Source: Acetilactobacillus jinshanensis
Lineage (GTDB): Bacteria; Bacillota; Bacilli; Lactobacillales; Lactobacillaceae
Length of the DNA: 64,000 nucleotides
NCBI RefSeq assembly: GCF_004359375.1
Contig: NZ_CP034726.1
Span: forward strand, 496,001-560,000
Reading direction: 5' to 3'
Below are positions 430 to 46,309 of this stretch, piece after piece. The notes under the pieces are model-generated. The model was not told the DNA's origin. It did no database searches and worked only from the letters and a program-made list of their open reading frames with translations. Numbering within the stretch: the first letter of the stretch is position 1; each line of letters begins with the position of its first letter. The position numbers and the translations under genes are program-made.

Positions 430-1590
430 TTATTTTTGCATAAATTGTCGGATCCGTTTTAAAGCTTCCTTAATATCACTTAGACTAGCAGCATAACTAA
501 CCCTTACGTAGCCTTCGCCACCGGGGCCAAAGACGCTTCCGGGAACGACGCCGACGTGGGCCTTTTTAGCTAGTGTAAAAGCAAATCCGACACTATCATT
601 CTGATACTTTTTCGGTAATTTAGCAAAGGTATAGAATGCACCTTCGGGTTTTGGGCATTTAAAGCCGAGTTTATCTAAGCCGTGACATAGGACCTGGCTG
701 TTATGTCGATAAGCTCTTTTCATTGGTAGAGCGTCATCAGCACCGTTCTTAAAGGCTTCGTTAGTGGCGTACTGGGAACAGGTCGTAGCGGCTGTAATGG
801 TGATGGTGTGGACCTTATTAATCTTATCAATAATTTTCTTAGGGCCACAAACGAGGCCGATCCGCCAACCAGTCATGGCAAAAGTCTTGGATGCACCGTT
901 GAACATGATGACTTGATCTGGAATCATTGTGCCCATGGAATAATGTTTGCATCCATAGGTTAATTCACTGTAGATTTCGTCGGATAGACAGAAAATTGGG
1001 TACTGTTTGATAACGTCTGCTAACTGCTGGAGTTCTGCTTTCGAGTAAACGACTCCAGTGGGGTTATTAGGGTCGTTAAGAATGACGGCCTTAACTTTAG
1101 GATGTGTCTTTAAAGTCTTAGCTAACACTTTCGGTGATAATTTAAAGTTAGTACTATCGGTATTGATAAAGATGGGTTTAGCGTCGTGGATTAATACGTT
1201 CGGGATATAGAATGGATAAATTGGGGTTGGGATGATAACCTCATCTCCAGGGTTGATAATGGCGGCTAAGACAGAACCTAGGCCTTCACTGACACCGGTC
1301 GTAACGAGCATTTCCGATTTTGGATCGTAGTTTAATCCATAGTGAGATTTGAAGAATTTGCTCGCGTTGATTCGAAGGGACAATAGGCCACGCGGGTTAG
1401 TGTAATGGCTGTCGTCATTTTGAATCGCTTTAATCGCAGCTTCTTTGATATGAGCGGGAGTATGAAAACCCGGTTCGCCAACGGTTAATTTAACGACGTC
1501 CGGGATGTTAGCAATGTCATCGTTAAAACTATAAATGCCTAAAGGCCATTTTTGATTAACGTATGTGTTCATACGATTAGATAAATCCAT
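430..1590 (-). CDS. Class I/II PLP-dependent aminotransferase (alanine type suggested by leader)
   Basis: A 386-residue fold-type I aminotransferase of the aspartate/alanine aminotransferase group. Visible motifs are NDPNNPTG (about 172-179), the PLP-pyridine Asp in SDEIYSEL (about 204), the PLP-binding Lys in GASKTFAMTGWR (about 235) and the C-terminal substrate Arg in YVRVSY. ATG 1588-1590 is preferred over the upstream TTG (1597-1599), because the AAAGGGA ribosome site leaves about 9 bases to the ATG. The upstream leader peptide is rich in Ala codons and a permease follows, so I infer a role in alanine synthesis (pyruvate plus glutamate). Aspartate or aromatic specificity cannot be excluded from sequence. 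Confidence 0.9.
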   Translation of the reverse strand: MDLSNRMNTYVNQKWPLGIYSFNDDIANIPDVVKLTVGEPGFHTPAHIKEAAIKAIQNDDSHYTNPRGLLSLRINASKFFKSHYGLNYDPKSEMLVTTGVSEGLGSVLAAIINPGDEVIIPTPIYPFYIPNVLIHDAKPIFINTDSTNFKLSPKVLAKTLKTHPKVKAVILNDPNNPTGVVYSKAELQQLADVIKQYPIFCLSDEIYSELTYGCKHYSMGTMIPDQVIMFNGASKTFAMTGWRIGLVCGPKKIIDKINKVHTITITAATTCSQYATNEAFKNGADDALPMKRAYRHNSQVLCHGLDKLGFKCPKPEGAFYTFAKLPKKYQNDSVGFAFTLAKKAHVGVVPGSVFGPGGEGYVRVSYAASLSDIKEALKRIRQFMQK

Positions 1591-14733: not shown

Positions 14734-14972
14734 AAAAAGCCATCATTTTAAGATAGCTTAAAACGATGGCATCAATTTTACCTACTTAACATATAGTCCA
14801 ACGTTCAAAGCTCTCCGCAGTTTATCTACGACAGTTCGCGATCTATTGAATCACGCCCCAGATCACCAGTAACCACTTTTACTAGCACCTCGGCAACTTT
14901 CCCTTTCAGCTAACTTCTTCACTAAAGTAGTAGTTCAATTAACCTACTCTTGTCAGTTGCAACCTCTTTGAT
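14734..14972 (-). promoter_or_regulatory. Lysine riboswitch (L-box) with terminator
   Basis: On the minus strand the leader carries L-box signatures in order: AGAGGTTGCAACTG, AAGAGTAGG, GCTGAAAGGGAAAGTTGCCG, GGTTACTGGTGATCTGG and ACTGCGGAGAGCTTT. An expression platform follows with the hairpin GCCATCGTTTTAAG...CTTAAAATGATGGCTTTTT (14734-14772). This should shut off the permease gene when lysine is plentiful. The recognition rests on sequence pattern; a covariance search was not run. Confidence 0.88.
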
Positions 14973-15106
14973 TTTTATATTAAATATATTATAACTTTAT
15001 GGTATTTTTGTCAAACCAATTTATTGATATTGACTATCAATGTTTAACTTTATATAGTTAAATTATACGTAAATTTAACTAATGTTCGTTTAAAGGAGCA
15101 ATTACT

Positions 15107-32565: not shown

Positions 32566-32805
32566 AAATCGCCTCAATTATTCTTTCAAATAATTGGGAC
32601 GATCAGTTATTAATAACCGCGGTACCACCCAGATTAGCAGGTAACTACTCACTCAAATAGATGATAACGGTTCTATGATTTCCGAACATCAACACTCACC
32701 GTATTTTGAGCAGCGACCCTGCCCGGTTCACAGCAAACCACCGGTTCTCTGACGTTCAAGCCGCTTCTCTACTAGAAATGAATTTCACGATTACTTATGA
32801 ATTTT
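32566..32805 (-). promoter_or_regulatory. Tyr T-box leader
   Basis: The minus-strand leader has the T-box core GGGTGGTACCGCGG, an AGAGAAGCGG-type stem I start and a distal GGTGGTTTGC...GAACCGGGC region. A candidate specifier UAC (Tyr) lies at plus-strand 32701-32703 in AAAATACGGTGAG. The terminator GTCCCAATTATT...AATAATTGAGGCGATTTTTT follows. Uncharged tRNA-Tyr should bind and allow read-through into the NhaC-like gene and tyrS. Confidence 0.92.
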
Positions 32806-42128: not shown

Positions 42129-43424
42129 TTATGGGTTTAACCGGTTCATTAATCTTGGGAATGGAATACACTGACGAATGTGGTTCTGGTGAGTGATCCA
42201 GGCTAAGAAACGTTCTAAGCCTAAGCCAAAGCCAGAATGCGGAACACTACCGTACTTACGTAAGTCTAAGTACCAGTCGTACATCTTAGGATCCTGGCCA
42301 CTTTCCTTAATCTTCTTTAATAGGTAGTCGTAATTAGTTGAACGTTCAGAACCACCAATAATTTCACCGTAACCCTGTGGAGCGATACAGTCGGCACAGA
42401 TTACCTTTCGATCATCGTCCGGATCCGGTTTCATGTAGAATGGCTTAGCACTCTTTGGATAGTTACATACGAAGCACGGCTTCTTGAAGTTTTCACCGAT
42501 GCAAGTTTCTTCAGGAGAACCAAATGGTTCACCCCACTTGATGTGTAAGCCGTTCTTATGGAATAACTTAATGGCATCATCATAACTAATGCGTGGGTAT
42601 GGCGTCTTGGTACAAGCCTTTAAGTCATCTAACGGCCGGCCTAATAACTTCAGTTCATACTGACAATGATCAAGGATACTCTTAATCATGTAGGCGATAT
42701 AATCTTCCTGAACCTTTAAGCTTTCGTCCTGGTGACAAAATGCCATTTCAGGTTCGATCATCCAAAATTCGGATAAGTGGCGACGGGTCTTGGATTTACT
42801 TTCACGGAACGTTGGTCCAAATGAATAAACCTTACCAAAAGCTGCGGCACCAGCTTCTTCATAAAGCTGACCACTTTGTGATAAGTAAGCATCTTCACCA
42901 AAGTATTCACAATGGAATAAGTCGGTCGTGTTTTCTGGTGCGTTGGCGGTAAAGATTGGTGCATCGAACTGAACGAAACCGTGCTTATGGAAGAAGCGGT
43001 AGGTAGCACGTTTAGCTTCATCACGAATTCGTAAAATAGCCCAAGGTTCTTTATGACGGATCCATAAATGACGATGGTCTAATAAGTAGTTAATGTTGTA
43101 CTTTTCATGAGAAATTGGGTAGTCATGAGATTTGTCGATCATCTTGATGTCTTCAACCTGGATTTCGTAACCAAATGGTGATCGTTTATCGGCATCGATA
43201 GTCCCGATAACCCAGAAACTTGATTCCTGTCGCAGGTGTTCGGCTAAATCAAAGATCTTCGGATCGACCTTGTTTTTCTTAACGATTCCCTGGAAAAATG
43301 CGGTCCCGTCACGTAACTGTAAGAACGCAATCTTACCTGAGCCACGTTTGTTAGTTAACCAACAACCAATTTTAACTTCTTCGCCAACGTGTTCCTTGGA
43401 ATCAGCAATACAAATTCGTTCCAT
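42129..43424 (-). CDS. asnS: Asparaginyl-tRNA synthetase
   Basis: A 431-residue class IIb synthetase. The N-terminal OB fold ([21 protein letters not shown]) binds the anticodon. The catalytic domain has motif 2 [25 protein letters not shown] and motif 3 [13 protein letters not shown]. An AGAGGAG ribosome site precedes ATG. It is the only gene after a tRNA-Asn pair, an Asn-rich leader and an attenuator (43463-43901), so its expression should rise when charged tRNA-Asn is scarce. Confidence 0.96.
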
Positions 43425-43462
43425 AATGAATTCGCTCCTCTAAAGTATCAAATATTATCTAT

Positions 43463-43697
43463 TAAAAAATCCTCACAACTAATTGATTCTCAGCTGTGAG
43501 GATTTCACTTTAGTGTTGTCACTATTGAAAAATAACATCTACACAGCCGATTGATGCCGTCTGTGCAGATCCATTCATTGATTTAAGAAAGTATTCTGGT
43601 GTTTACACAGACGCTAATAATTCAAATTTGAATTTAGATTTCGATTCAGATTTGAATTATTAGCGTCATCGATAATGCTTAAACTAATTAAAGACAT
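43463..43697 (-). promoter_or_regulatory. Asparagine-type leader-peptide attenuator of asnS
   Basis: After the leader ORF stop, minus strand, come four pairing segments. CGTCTGTG (starting at the last base of the stop) pairs with CACAGACG eight for eight. The CACAG of segment 2 pairs with CTGTG in segment 3. Segment 3 CGGCTGTG pairs with segment 4 CACAGCTG. Segment 4 is the 5' arm of the terminator ATCCTCACAGCT...AGTTGTGAGGATTTTTT (43463-43504). A ribosome stalled at Asn codons favours 1:2 plus 3:4 (read-through); one reaching the stop covers segment 1 and favours termination. Confidence 0.88.
43614..43697 (-). CDS. Asn-rich leader peptide of asnS (27 aa)
   Basis: A 27-codon ORF with AAGGAG 9 bases before ATG. 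After MSLISLSIIDDA the rest reads NNSNLNRNLNSNLNY: eight Asn in fifteen residues, all AAT codons. It starts 20 bases after the 3' end of the nearer tRNA-Asn gene. This codon bias next to asnS is far from chance and marks it as the sensor of the attenuator. Confidence 0.9.
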   Translation of the reverse strand: MSLISLSIIDDANNSNLNRNLNSNLNY

Positions 43698-43717
43698 TGA
43701 TGACAACTCCTTATTAA

Positions 43718-43790
43718 CTGTCCCAGATGGGCTCGAACCACCATCCGTCCCAGCAAACAACTGGGCGTTCTACCATTAGACTACAGGACA
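43718..43790 (-). tRNA. tRNA-Asn (GTT), copy 1
   Basis: Acceptor TGTCCTG/TGGGACA, D arm GTCTAATGGTAGAAC, anticodon stem CCCAG/CTGGG with loop TTGTTTG (anticodon GTT), T arm GGTGG/CCATC and discriminator G73, the identity base for AsnRS. CCA is not encoded. Second of two tRNA-Asn genes in the asnS transcript. Confidence 0.95.
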
Positions 43791-43828
43791 ATGATGAATA
43801 TGTAATAATTGGGAAGCTGAACTTCCAA

Positions 43829-43901
43829 CTGTCCCAGATGGGCTCGAACCACCATCCATCCTGGCAAACAACCAGGCGTTCTACCATTAGACTACAGGAC
43901 A
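43829..43901 (-). tRNA. tRNA-Asn (GTT), copy 2
   Basis: Same cloverleaf as copy 1 but with anticodon stem CCTGG/CCAGG, a compensated change. The spacer to copy 1 contains GGAAG...CTTCC, a likely processing hairpin. A promoter lies at 43956-43986 upstream. Confidence 0.95.
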
Positions 43902-43955
43902 ATAATAAGGATAGCCGAACCGGTTATCTTGCAACCGATCTCATCGACTACACTT

Positions 43956-43986
43956 ATTATATTAACATCATTATTTTATGATGCAA
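43956..43986 (-). promoter_or_regulatory. Promoter of the tRNA-Asn/asnS transcript
   Basis: On the minus strand TTGCAT is followed by TAATAT at 16 bases (or TATAAT at 19), about 55 bases before the first tRNA-Asn. I see no other promoter or terminator between tRNA copy 1 and the leader ORF. Confidence 0.6.
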
Positions 43987-44095
43987 GGGAAATGTTGAGA
44001 TTTATTAATAAATTTTCAATTTATTATTCTCAAATTGTTTCAATTTTGTTTACTATCTATATTTAAGGCTAATAAATGGTGTTAATCCGATCAAA

Positions 44096-45619
44096 TTAGC
44101 CTAAGAAATGTCTTAAGAGACCCTGACGATTGATTAACCAGGTGATCGTCTTGGAATCAGTTGCGTTGATTAATTCAGAGGCTAACTGACATTCTTTAGC
44201 TTCGGATGAATTCTTTGGACCGGGCTGAATACCAAAGGTCTTCGTAATCCCCTGAACATCCTTTTCGACTTCTTTCCAAGCGGAGTTCTTGGCTTCTAAT
44301 TCATTTAAGGCACTCTGACTAAAGTAATGCATCAATAATTCAAAGTCAGCTTTCATGTCAGGATAGTACTTCATAAGAACGGCCTTTTCATGATCACTTA
44401 ATTTAGCTAAGGTTTTACCAACACCTAAGATTTCGGGCGGAATACCAACGGAATAGAACGAGCCACTGTAAGTAATGGCACGAGGCATCTTGAAGCCATC
44501 GACATCACGAGAGTAGCTTAGGATCCCGACCGTTGGGTGACGGTAACGACGCTTTGGGAAGGAACTAAAGACGGGCTGTAAGTCTTTGACCAATGGATCT
44601 AAGGTCTTGTGGTATTCAATGCTGGATTCCTTAGCAATCTTGATCAACGTTTTTTCGTCAGCTTTCGGAATGACCTGGAAATCATTGTGCTGTAAGTTAT
44701 GACGTAAGTGTTTAATCGCGGGTTTAACGACCCTTTCTAATGGGTAATCATAACGGAATGCTGATTGAGCAGTCGCGGTCTTTAATCCTGGATATTCACG
44801 GGTGTAACGATCGATCCGAACCGGTGATAAACCACCACGGAAGATCGTGCTGCCACTACCGGCAATTGGGAAGATCGGCATATGAATCTGGTGTGAGAAC
44901 TGACCAATCCGAGTTAACGCAATCTTGTTACCAAGAATGCTGTTAAGGAAGCCGTTGCCTAATGCTGTATCAGAACACGCTAAGAAGACTCGCATGTACT
45001 TAAGGTGACGATGGAAATGTTCGTGGTACATCTTGATGTAATCAGTTAAGATCTTCGGGATGCTTAGTTGAACGTCGAAGTTTTCGAATAACGGAATCAT
45101 GCCAATGTAAGGATTATTCTTATAATGGCCCTTGCTAAAGCTTTCGGTCTTATACTTAGCTAAACTTTCGAACTTTTCCTGAGTGATAATGATCTGTTTA
45201 GCATTTTGGGTCATTGGTAAAATGGCTTCGATCGATGGCCGGTTAAAATGCAAATCATGAGTAAAGTCTTCGGCAGTCAACATGGTCGTCATGGCCTGCA
45301 TAATGTTGTAGCCTGGTTCCTGCCAAATGTTTGGGAACCGGAACGTTAGGAATTTATCTTTACCCAACGGGTGCTTCTTAAAGAAGTCGTAGTGATCAGC
45401 AATTAAATGGTCTAGGACGGTACCATCGGCATACTTACCTTCCCAGTCCCACATGGATTCATCTGTATCTAAGGTCTTGAAGTCTTCGTAAGCTTCCTTC
45501 ATTTCGTTAAAAGAGTTAACCATAGGACTCTTCTGGAAAAATGGAGCTCGCGCGTTATCTGGATGCTGCGAACCCATTACGTTTGGGATCTTACGACCAA
45601 TTTCTTCACTCATAACCAT
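44096..45619 (-). CDS. ppcA: Archaeal-type phosphoenolpyruvate carboxylase
   Basis: A 507-residue enzyme, the short PpcA type rather than the 900-residue bacterial form. It opens with RKIPNVMGSQHPDNARAPFF and carries GHYKNNPYIGMIPLFENF, FLACSDTALGNGF and GSGSTIFRGGLSPVRIDRY. It carboxylates PEP to oxaloacetate, the carbon source for aspartate. AGGAGG precedes the first ATG. Sparse distribution: known from archaea, Clostridium, Leuconostoc/Oenococcus and some lactobacilli. It is preceded by tRNA-Asn genes and a Asp/Asn-rich leader with attenuator. Confidence 0.93.
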   Translation of the reverse strand: MVMSEEIGRKIPNVMGSQHPDNARAPFFQKSPMVNSFNEMKEAYEDFKTLDTDESMWDWEGKYADGTVLDHLIADHYDFFKKHPLGKDKFLTFRFPNIWQEPGYNIMQAMTTMLTAEDFTHDLHFNRPSIEAILPMTQNAKQIIITQEKFESLAKYKTESFSKGHYKNNPYIGMIPLFENFDVQLSIPKILTDYIKMYHEHFHRHLKYMRVFLACSDTALGNGFLNSILGNKIALTRIGQFSHQIHMPIFPIAGSGSTIFRGGLSPVRIDRYTREYPGLKTATAQSAFRYDYPLERVVKPAIKHLRHNLQHNDFQVIPKADEKTLIKIAKESSIEYHKTLDPLVKDLQPVFSSFPKRRYRHPTVGILSYSRDVDGFKMPRAITYSGSFYSVGIPPEILGVGKTLAKLSDHEKAVLMKYYPDMKADFELLMHYFSQSALNELEAKNSAWKEVEKDVQGITKTFGIQPGPKNSSEAKECQLASELINATDSKTITWLINRQGLLRHFLG

Positions 45620-45651
45620 AACATTTTCCTCCTAGTAATTTATCAAAGCAT

Positions 45652-45879
45652 TAAAAAAGCCGCACAGCTTTTCTACTAAGCCATGCGGTTTGATTTCGTG
45701 TTATATATGTTAGTCACGATCCACAAGACCTAGTATTCGGGTCTGTGCGGATCACATTTGGATTAATATCTATATAATTCACACAGACGTTAAAGATTTG
45801 ATTCTGAATCCATCTTGGTATTCAGATTGTCATCCTTAACGTCGCGTTTAACTAATAACAAGCGACTAATGACTAACAT
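45652..45879 (-). promoter_or_regulatory. Asp/Asn-type leader-peptide attenuator of PEP carboxylase
   Basis: Directly after the leader stop, minus strand, GTCTGTGTG pairs with CGCACAGAC. That second segment (GATCCGCACAGACC) also pairs with GGTCTTGTGGATC. TTGTGG in the third can pair with CCGCAT, the 5' arm of the terminator CCGCATGGCTT...AAGCTGTGCGGCTTTTTT (45652-45690). The design and even the CGTCTGTG first segment match the asnS attenuator. The 3:4 pairing is weaker here than in the Ala and Asn cases. Confidence 0.78.
45790..45879 (-). CDS. Asp/Asn-rich leader peptide of PEP carboxylase (29 aa)
   Basis: A 29-codon ORF with AAGGAG 8 bases before ATG. The first half is MLVISRLLLVKR; the second half reads DVKDDNLNTKMDSESNL, with four Asp and three Asn in seventeen residues. 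It starts 37 bases after the tRNA-Asn copy 3. The enzyme behind it supplies oxaloacetate for aspartate and asparagine, so the codon content fits end-product control. Confidence 0.82.
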   Translation of the reverse strand: MLVISRLLLVKRDVKDDNLNTKMDSESNL

Positions 45880-45916
45880 AACCAAAACTCCTTAAATTTT
45901 AACAAACAACTAGAAA

Positions 45917-45989
45917 CTGTCCCAGATGGGCTCGAGCCACCATCCATCCTGGCAAACAACCAGGCGTTCTACCGTTAGACTACAGGACA
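45917..45989 (-). tRNA. tRNA-Asn (GTT), copy 3, with T-loop change
   Basis: As copy 2 (anticodon stem CCTGG/CCAGG) but the T loop starts CTCGA instead of TTCGA (position 54 is C) and the D loop has C for T. Anticodon GTT and discriminator G are intact. Position 54 is nearly invariant in bacterial tRNAs, so this copy may fold or be modified poorly. Confidence 0.9.
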
Positions 45990-46029
45990 ATAATGAAGGT
46001 GTCATAATTTGGGAAGCATCAACTTCCAA

Positions 46030-46102
46030 CTGTCCCAGATGGGCTCGAACCACCATCCATCCCAGCAAACAACTGGGCGTTCTACCATTAGACTACAGGA
46101 CA
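46030..46102 (-). tRNA. tRNA-Asn (GTT), copy 4
   Basis: Identical design to copy 1 (anticodon stem CCCAG/CTGGG, standard TTCGA T loop). First gene of the second tRNA-Asn/leader/PEP carboxylase transcript. The spacer to copy 3 again has GGAAG...CTTCC. Confidence 0.95.
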
Positions 46103-46148
46103 ATAACTAGTGAACAATATGAGTAAGACATATCACTTTGTACACTTT

Positions 46149-46178
46149 TTATAATAGAGCAACGAAATTAAATGTCAA
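46149..46178 (-). promoter_or_regulatory. Strong promoter of the tRNA-Asn/PEP carboxylase transcript
   Basis: On the minus strand a consensus TTGACA (46173-46178) is followed at 16 to 18 bases by TATTATAAA, about 47 bases before tRNA-Asn copy 4. No terminator is seen between the tRNAs and the leader ORF. Confidence 0.75.
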
Positions 46179-46309
46179 GAATTAATTTAAATTAATCAAA
46201 ACTTTTTATTTAATCTATCGCTCAATGCAATTTATATAATAAACCATTATTTCAGAAATGCAAATGAAATTATAAATATTTGTGAACTTTTTCGGCAAGT
46301 GGCCGAAAT

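Follow-up and report, generated by a model that had tools for sequence, protein, structure and literature searches.

Asn-codon leader-peptide attenuation predicted for two paralogous leaders, ahead of asnS2 and a PEP carboxylase gene, in Acetilactobacillus jinshanensis

The asnS2 gene of Acetilactobacillus jinshanensis, a paralogue of the gene for asparagine--tRNA ligase, is preceded by a short ORF rich in Asn codons, mutually exclusive RNA pairings and a terminator, and a paralogous arrangement stands ahead of a nearby gene for an archaeal-type PEP carboxylase (PEPC). We consider it highly probable (about 0.85) that the locus works in both copies like a classical peptide attenuator, mediated by the ribosome and sensing Asn. 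By all sequence features tested the attenuator is of the leader-peptide kind, and a response to starvation is predicted. The window, that is, the whole stretch of DNA analysed, comprises 64,000 nt of contig NZ_CP034726.1 (GCF_004359375.1; positions 496,001-560,000, forward strand), from a genome of 1.616 Mb on one contig; positions below refer to the window unless prefixed with C1.

In minus-strand order, a first unit consists of two tRNA-Asn genes, a 29-codon ORF, an attenuator with its terminator and the PEPC gene. A second unit, downstream of PEPC, consists of two more tRNA-Asn genes, a 27-codon Asn-rich ORF, an attenuator with its terminator and asnS2. Sequence alignment matches the two tRNA-leader units end to end, over their entire length, and therefore one was most likely copied from the other. 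Each gene would lie at the end of a transcript that runs from a promoter through two tRNA-Asn, a leader ORF and a terminator. A candidate promoter, TTGACA-16-TATTAT, is found upstream of the first tRNA pair (46151-46178, minus strand); it is a consensus match only, from a scan that returned 13 matches overall against 12.4 expected.

The leader of asnS2

The initial annotation proposed an Asn-codon leader-peptide attenuator ahead of asnS, and this proposal is supported; it makes no mention of the further attenuator at PEPC, of the tRNA genes, of asnS2 being a paralogue or of the ORF-internal helix. The downstream gene (42129-43424, minus strand, 431 aa) scores as an asparagine--tRNA ligase with both profiles applied (NF003037, 549.7 bits, cut-off 414; TIGR00457, 463.4, cut-off 342.6). 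On the same strand, two tRNA-Asn(GUU) genes lie at 43828-43902 and 43717-43791, the latter ending directly before the asnS2 leader. The leader ORF (43614-43697, minus strand) has 27 codons from the ATG at 43697 to the TAG at 43616-43614 and would encode the peptide MSLISLSIIDDANNSNLNRNLNSNLNY; an AAGGAG box at 43707-43712, 9 nt before the ATG, is the predicted ribosome-binding site. Leader, AAGGAG box and terminator follow one another in the order expected for an attenuator. All Asn codons of the ORF are AAT (eight, against no AAC) and all eight fall within the last 15 sense codons, in agreement with the coordinates and codon count given earlier; across the 13,523 codons of the window genes, AAT and AAC are used nearly equally (2.59% versus 2.65%). 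In six frames of the window, this is the sole stretch with at least eight Asn per 15 stop-free codons, as compared with a mean of 0.01 in 100 dinucleotide shuffles of the window.

The RNA can be divided into segments, all on the minus strand. A hairpin within the ORF (segment 0, 43610-43667; -26.9 kcal/mol, z -9.8, for the fold of 43604-43667) contains the Asn codons and occupies the first bases of segment 1 (43604-43613). Segment 2 (43558-43576) can pair either with segment 1, through 43558-43567, or with segment 3 (43527-43552), which in turn can pair with segment 4 through 43542-43552. Segments 4 and 5 form the terminator, which together with its U run spans 43464-43506 (hairpin 43506-43466, U run 43469-43464, MFE -23 kcal/mol, shuffle z -7.7). 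The respective pairing energies are -14.4 kcal/mol for 1:2, -17.3 for 2:3, -14.0 for 3:4 and -20.4 for 4:5. The first stem had been described as eight pairs out of eight beginning at the stop codon; it does begin at 43613, the base next after the stop, but has 10 pairs (CGUCUGUGUA:UGCACAGACG). The asnS2 hairpin was found by folding, and the terminator scan reports the terminator of PEPC and not that of asnS2. Folds of the plus strand gave the same hairpins as the minus strand and were set aside.

These elements suggest the following course of events. With charged tRNA-Asn plentiful, a ribosome translating the leader would reach the stop codon and cover segment 1, 2:3 would pair and the terminator 4:5 would form, so that the products would be limited to the tRNAs and a short RNA of the leader. 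When Asn-tRNA is short, the ribosome would stall on an AAT codon, open the ORF-internal helix and free segment 1; formation of 1:2 and then of 3:4 would allow RNA polymerase to continue into asnS2.

Uncharged tRNA or the AsnS2 protein might instead bind the leader directly and switch it, in a T-box-like or autogenous manner. The tRNA genes just upstream on the same strand would suit such binding, as would the family assignment of the asnS2 product as a tRNA-binding protein. However, the T-box model of Rfam (RF00230) has no match at E<=5 in 43300-46300, and direct binding would leave both the ORF and its codon content without a role. We therefore hold direct binding to be very unlikely. In the genome, 26 T-box matches are found at E<=0.001, four of them over the curated cut-off, and none lies at either asnS. 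The relatives' asnS loci likewise yielded no T-box, neither at E<=0.5 (0 of 16, these being the loci searched out of 29 at hand) nor at the curated cut-off (0 of 20), and the part of PMC2494555 available reports a T-box on asnS in only few Firmicutes species. To describe the attenuator as present 'instead of a T-box', as in the initial annotation, is thus misleading, given the same findings in relatives, at the other asnS and in that source. Elsewhere in the window, a lysine riboswitch (14800-14976, minus strand, 89.5 bits) and a T-box match under the curated cut-off (32592-32787, minus strand, genome C1:528592-528787, 69.7 bits) were recorded.

Ribosome position and the choice of fold

We folded only the RNA left free by the ribosome, varying the stall position and lengthening the transcript stepwise, with footprints of 12, 15 and 18 nt; the folds are equilibrium states of truncated RNAs, with kinetics outside the model. 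In asnS2 transcripts with 3' ends at 236-243, segment 4 has emerged fully and segment 5 in part. At these lengths, stalls from -20 to -6 give 7.3-9.5 of the 10 pairs of 1:2 and 7.4-8.9 pairs of 3:4 over the three footprints, whereas a ribosome on the stop codon leaves 0 pairs of 1:2 and at most 1.7 of 3:4, and 2:3 and the nascent terminator form. The combination of 1:2 and 3:4 on stalling, part of the logic put forward earlier, is hence reproduced. The border of the switch lies between -4 and 0, varying with the footprint; positions -15 to -4 hold seven of the eight Asn codons, which places these within the stalling range or at the edge of the border.

The full-length asnS2 leader takes up the terminator fold in all ribosome states (P 0.96-0.99), and thus the switch must act during transcription. 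Moreover, in a transcript ending at 195, past segment 3 and before segment 4, 2:3 prevails even with a stalled ribosome, so that the stalled state must re-pair when segment 4 emerges. It follows from both results that the asnS2 switch depends on 3:4 forming before segment 5 emerges. The competition of segments 2 and 3 for the terminator arm, also claimed earlier, is recovered but confined to transcripts that end before the 3' arm of the terminator is complete. Free of ribosomes, the asnS2 leader shows a mixed fold at ends 236-241; from 243 onward its antiterminator is gone.

In these folds, the leader of PEPC switches in a comparable manner. At 3' ends 248-250, 3:4 has 13.8 pairs on stalls versus at most 0.7 at the stop codon. 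In the full-length PEPC leader, the probability of the terminator is 0.05-0.28 for stalls from -17 to -6, 0.98 at -2 and 0.79 at the stop. At end 252 with the ribosome at the stop, 3:4 persists with a footprint of 12 nt (11.4 pairs) and partly with one of 15 (4.4). The ribosome-free PEPC leader is terminator-folded. As a control, the stretch from stop codon to terminator was shuffled and those shuffles were counted whose switch equalled or exceeded the observed one. For asnS2, this applied to 1 of 300 in a fixed version and to 16 of 400 when the best of five transcript ends was taken; for PEPC, to 37 of 300 at one transcript end and to 3 of 400 when five ends were scanned.

A second leader ahead of PEPC, and known attenuators

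The PEPC gene (44096-45619, minus strand) encodes 507 aa and scores 466.4 bits with TIGR02751 (cut-off 146.05). Its unit opens with tRNA-Asn(GUU) genes at 46029-46103 and 45916-45990, followed by the leader ORF (45790-45879, MLVISRLLLVKRDVKDDNLNTKMDSESNL) with an AAGGAG box at 45888-45893, 8 nt before the ATG, all on the minus strand. Among the 29 codons of this ORF are three for Asn and five for Asp, a weaker codon run than in the asnS2 leader. The attenuator (45656-45789, minus strand) comprises segments 1 (45770-45789), 2 (45741-45757) and 3 (45718-45735), the terminator at 45660-45688 and a U run, and retains all four pairings: 1:2 with -19.1, 2:3 with -19.2, 3:4 with -17.5 and 4:5 with -17.6 kcal/mol. 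Segments 3 to 5 have diverged between the two copies and the pairing energies are similar. By plain sequence alignment many pairs are out of register between the copies, and in 3:4 five of nine are broken. An ORF-internal hairpin that takes the first bases of segment 1 is present in the PEPC copy as well.

An explanation that dispenses with attenuation would have the terminators merely end the tRNA transcripts, with asnS2 and PEPC served by promoters of their own and the leader ORFs being accidental or coding for an unrelated small protein. The terminators do come after the tRNA pairs, and a weak promoter-like match (43451-43423) lies downstream of the asnS2 terminator. Against this stand an AAGGAG box, an ORF and four exclusive pairings that are kept in two diverged copies, a run of eight Asn in 15 codons that is expected 0.01 times per window, and the fact that ribosome position sets the fold in both copies; we judge the explanation improbable.

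Could the leaders respond to a general slowing of translation and not to Asn, as described for ermC in the portion of PMC2965389 available? Any stall between -20 and -6 yields the antiterminator of asnS2, and the codon set of the PEPC leader is mixed, as such sensing would allow. It is hard to square with the asnS2 leader, where Asn accounts for eight of the last 15 codons, all of them AAT, and we give it the slimmest of chances.

Peptide attenuation thus remains our preferred reading, with the PEPC copy expected to work in the same way and to sense Asp as well as Asn codons. A leader that reads Asp codons fits a PEPC that supplies oxaloacetate for aspartate, and the Asp/Asn leader would be consistent with an enzyme that feeds aspartate and, via asnB, asparagine. 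The genome has one strong match to asnB, the upstream region of which, on reading, contains no leader of this type, and has no match to asnA (controls matched in 2 of 14). Of 80 genomes searched, 14, counting this one, have an archaeal-type PEPC; in relatives L142-L144 it comes after another gene, which we take to be asd, unlike the setting behind tRNA genes and a leader seen here.

Leader-peptide attenuators are well known from enterobacteria, for trp and his and, for a synthetase, pheST. The present locus shares with them a short ORF rich in cognate codons, exclusive hairpins and an intrinsic terminator, and with pheST a synthetase as target; unlike them it combines Asn codons with asnS, forms an adjacent paralogous pair, lies behind tRNA genes and belongs to a lactic acid bacterium. 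T-boxes likewise end transcription ahead of amino-acid genes, but read the tRNA directly and need no ORF, and RF00230 finds no match here. Within Firmicutes, His leader peptides have been predicted in Bacillus on hisS* and hisZ, two hisS paralogues, according to the part of PMC2965389 at hand; these also represent peptide attenuation predicted on a duplicated synthetase gene, and differ from the present case in amino acid and gene; that part of the paper mentions neither tRNA genes nor a metabolic partner gene. A Leu-rich ilv-leu leader in Staphylococcus aureus has mutational and reporter support in the text seen of PMC5794164; it is peptide attenuation in Firmicutes too, albeit of a biosynthetic operon and with Leu, as opposed to a synthetase gene and Asn. 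The view that such attenuation is very unusual in Firmicutes accordingly needs tempering in light of what these two sources contain. A literature search returned no paper that joins leader peptide, attenuation and asparaginyl-tRNA synthetase. The principle is classical; the amino acid, the gene pair, the tRNA genes within the units and the odd tRNA-Asn look new. If the proposal is right, an Asn-specific peptide attenuator acts on a synthetase gene in a T-box-heavy genome, duplication has placed two enzymes, one for charging and one anaplerotic, under one signal, and paralogous attenuators with different codon sets offer a natural pair for testing how codon content tunes the response.

Variant tRNA-Asn genes, asnS paralogues and occurrence elsewhere

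The four tRNA-Asn genes of the locus all have anticodon GUU, discriminator G73 and the anticodon loop UUGUUUG. Anticodon and G73 are bacterial Asn determinants, as given in the part of PMC9976931 available. Among the 69 tRNAs of the genome, 52 have A37, 13 have G37 and four have U37, the last being the locus tRNA-Asn, the only ones with a pyrimidine at this position; the two ordinary tRNA-Asn have the loop CUGUUAA. Position 37 of tRNAs is normally a purine, and U37 should impair decoding; a literature search on this effect of U37 found nothing. The anticodon stems vary among the four genes with compensating changes (CCUGG/CCAGG and CCCAG/CUGGG), which suggests that the tRNA fold has been kept. 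The closest relatives to turn up, at 77-80%, are tRNA-Asn genes carried by Nitunavirus phages of Bacillus; the two that were read have the usual loop. A role of the U37 tRNAs in peptidoglycan cross-bridges was considered and rejected, as the genome has no FemAB match (controls matched in 3 of 14). The peptide aminoacyl-tRNA ligase family PF04738 had no match in the genome, and none in the controls either.

The other asnS of the genome (C1:1130909-1132198) is 72% identical to asnS2. Its 16 kb stretch contains no tRNA genes and, by reading, no comparable leader; an adjoining gene is presumably dnaD. The two copies group as sisters in a tree of 32 proteins (support 100/99); the branch of asnS2 has a length of 0.48 and that of the other asnS 0.11, and asnS2 is therefore a lineage-specific, fast-evolving duplicate. 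Between the copies, dN is 0.21 and dS 1.87, the latter near saturation; the resulting dN/dS of about 0.11 points to selection for function on asnS2 and speaks for a functional protein. Among the columns that at least 90% of 30 relatives conserve, asnS2 departs at 32 and the other asnS at 21, and 13 departures are common to both when the two lists are compared by reading. Notably, asnS2 has FRES for FRAE and HEKYN for PKEHG, where 27-30 of the 30 relatives agree; the A and E of FRAE are present in 30 of 30 relatives' rows. Motif 2 of class II synthetases contains arginine-x-glutamate, and we take the FRAE/FRES stretch to be this motif and the PKEHG/HEKYN stretch to be the hinge that precedes the catalytic domain. 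The nearest match to asnS2 in plasmid records is from Limosilactobacillus fermentum (63%). Four distant viral relatives of asnS have 32-36% identity.

That tRNA-Asn with U37 should decode poorly raises the question of their purpose. Conceivably, the locus constitutes a self-contained Asn-tRNA module, in which four poorly decoding U37 tRNA-Asn are charged by an asnS2 product whose tRNA- and ATP-facing positions have drifted to suit this task, PEPC feeds aspartate, and paired attenuators read Asn and Asp; the charged variant tRNA might be used for something other than regular elongation, or provide a buffer to which the attenuators respond. We offer this extension as speculation and deem it rather unlikely.

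The variant anticodon arm, with up to three mismatches, was found in 1 of 397 genomes of the family and the exact core of segments 1 and 2 in 1 of 100 relatives, in each case in A. jinshanensis itself. In the GTDB collection, the exact arm pattern has a single match, within a Bacteroidales reading frame and with no tRNA. Searches for the leader in plasmids and phages gave no match, and upstream of asnS in 29 relatives and of PEPC in 13 there was neither a comparable Asn-rich leader nor a same-strand tRNA-Asn. No homologous attenuator was found in other genomes, the relatives searched including no further member of the genus, so that cross-species covariation lends the pairings no support. Short frames with five Asn plus Asp per 15 codons, never with more than four Asn, were seen upstream of asnS in 7 of the 29 relatives and upstream of PEPC in 0 of the 13. 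A strict tRNA pattern had 0 matches in viral contigs, and a looser one 52 stretches by pattern match alone. Relative L157 (G013:C1:499000-503500) has two asnS genes, the second with no tRNA and situated behind another gene, presumably asnA. In relative L147, the strand opposite to PEPC carries an ordinary tRNA-Asn (1180-1251, minus strand) upstream of that gene.
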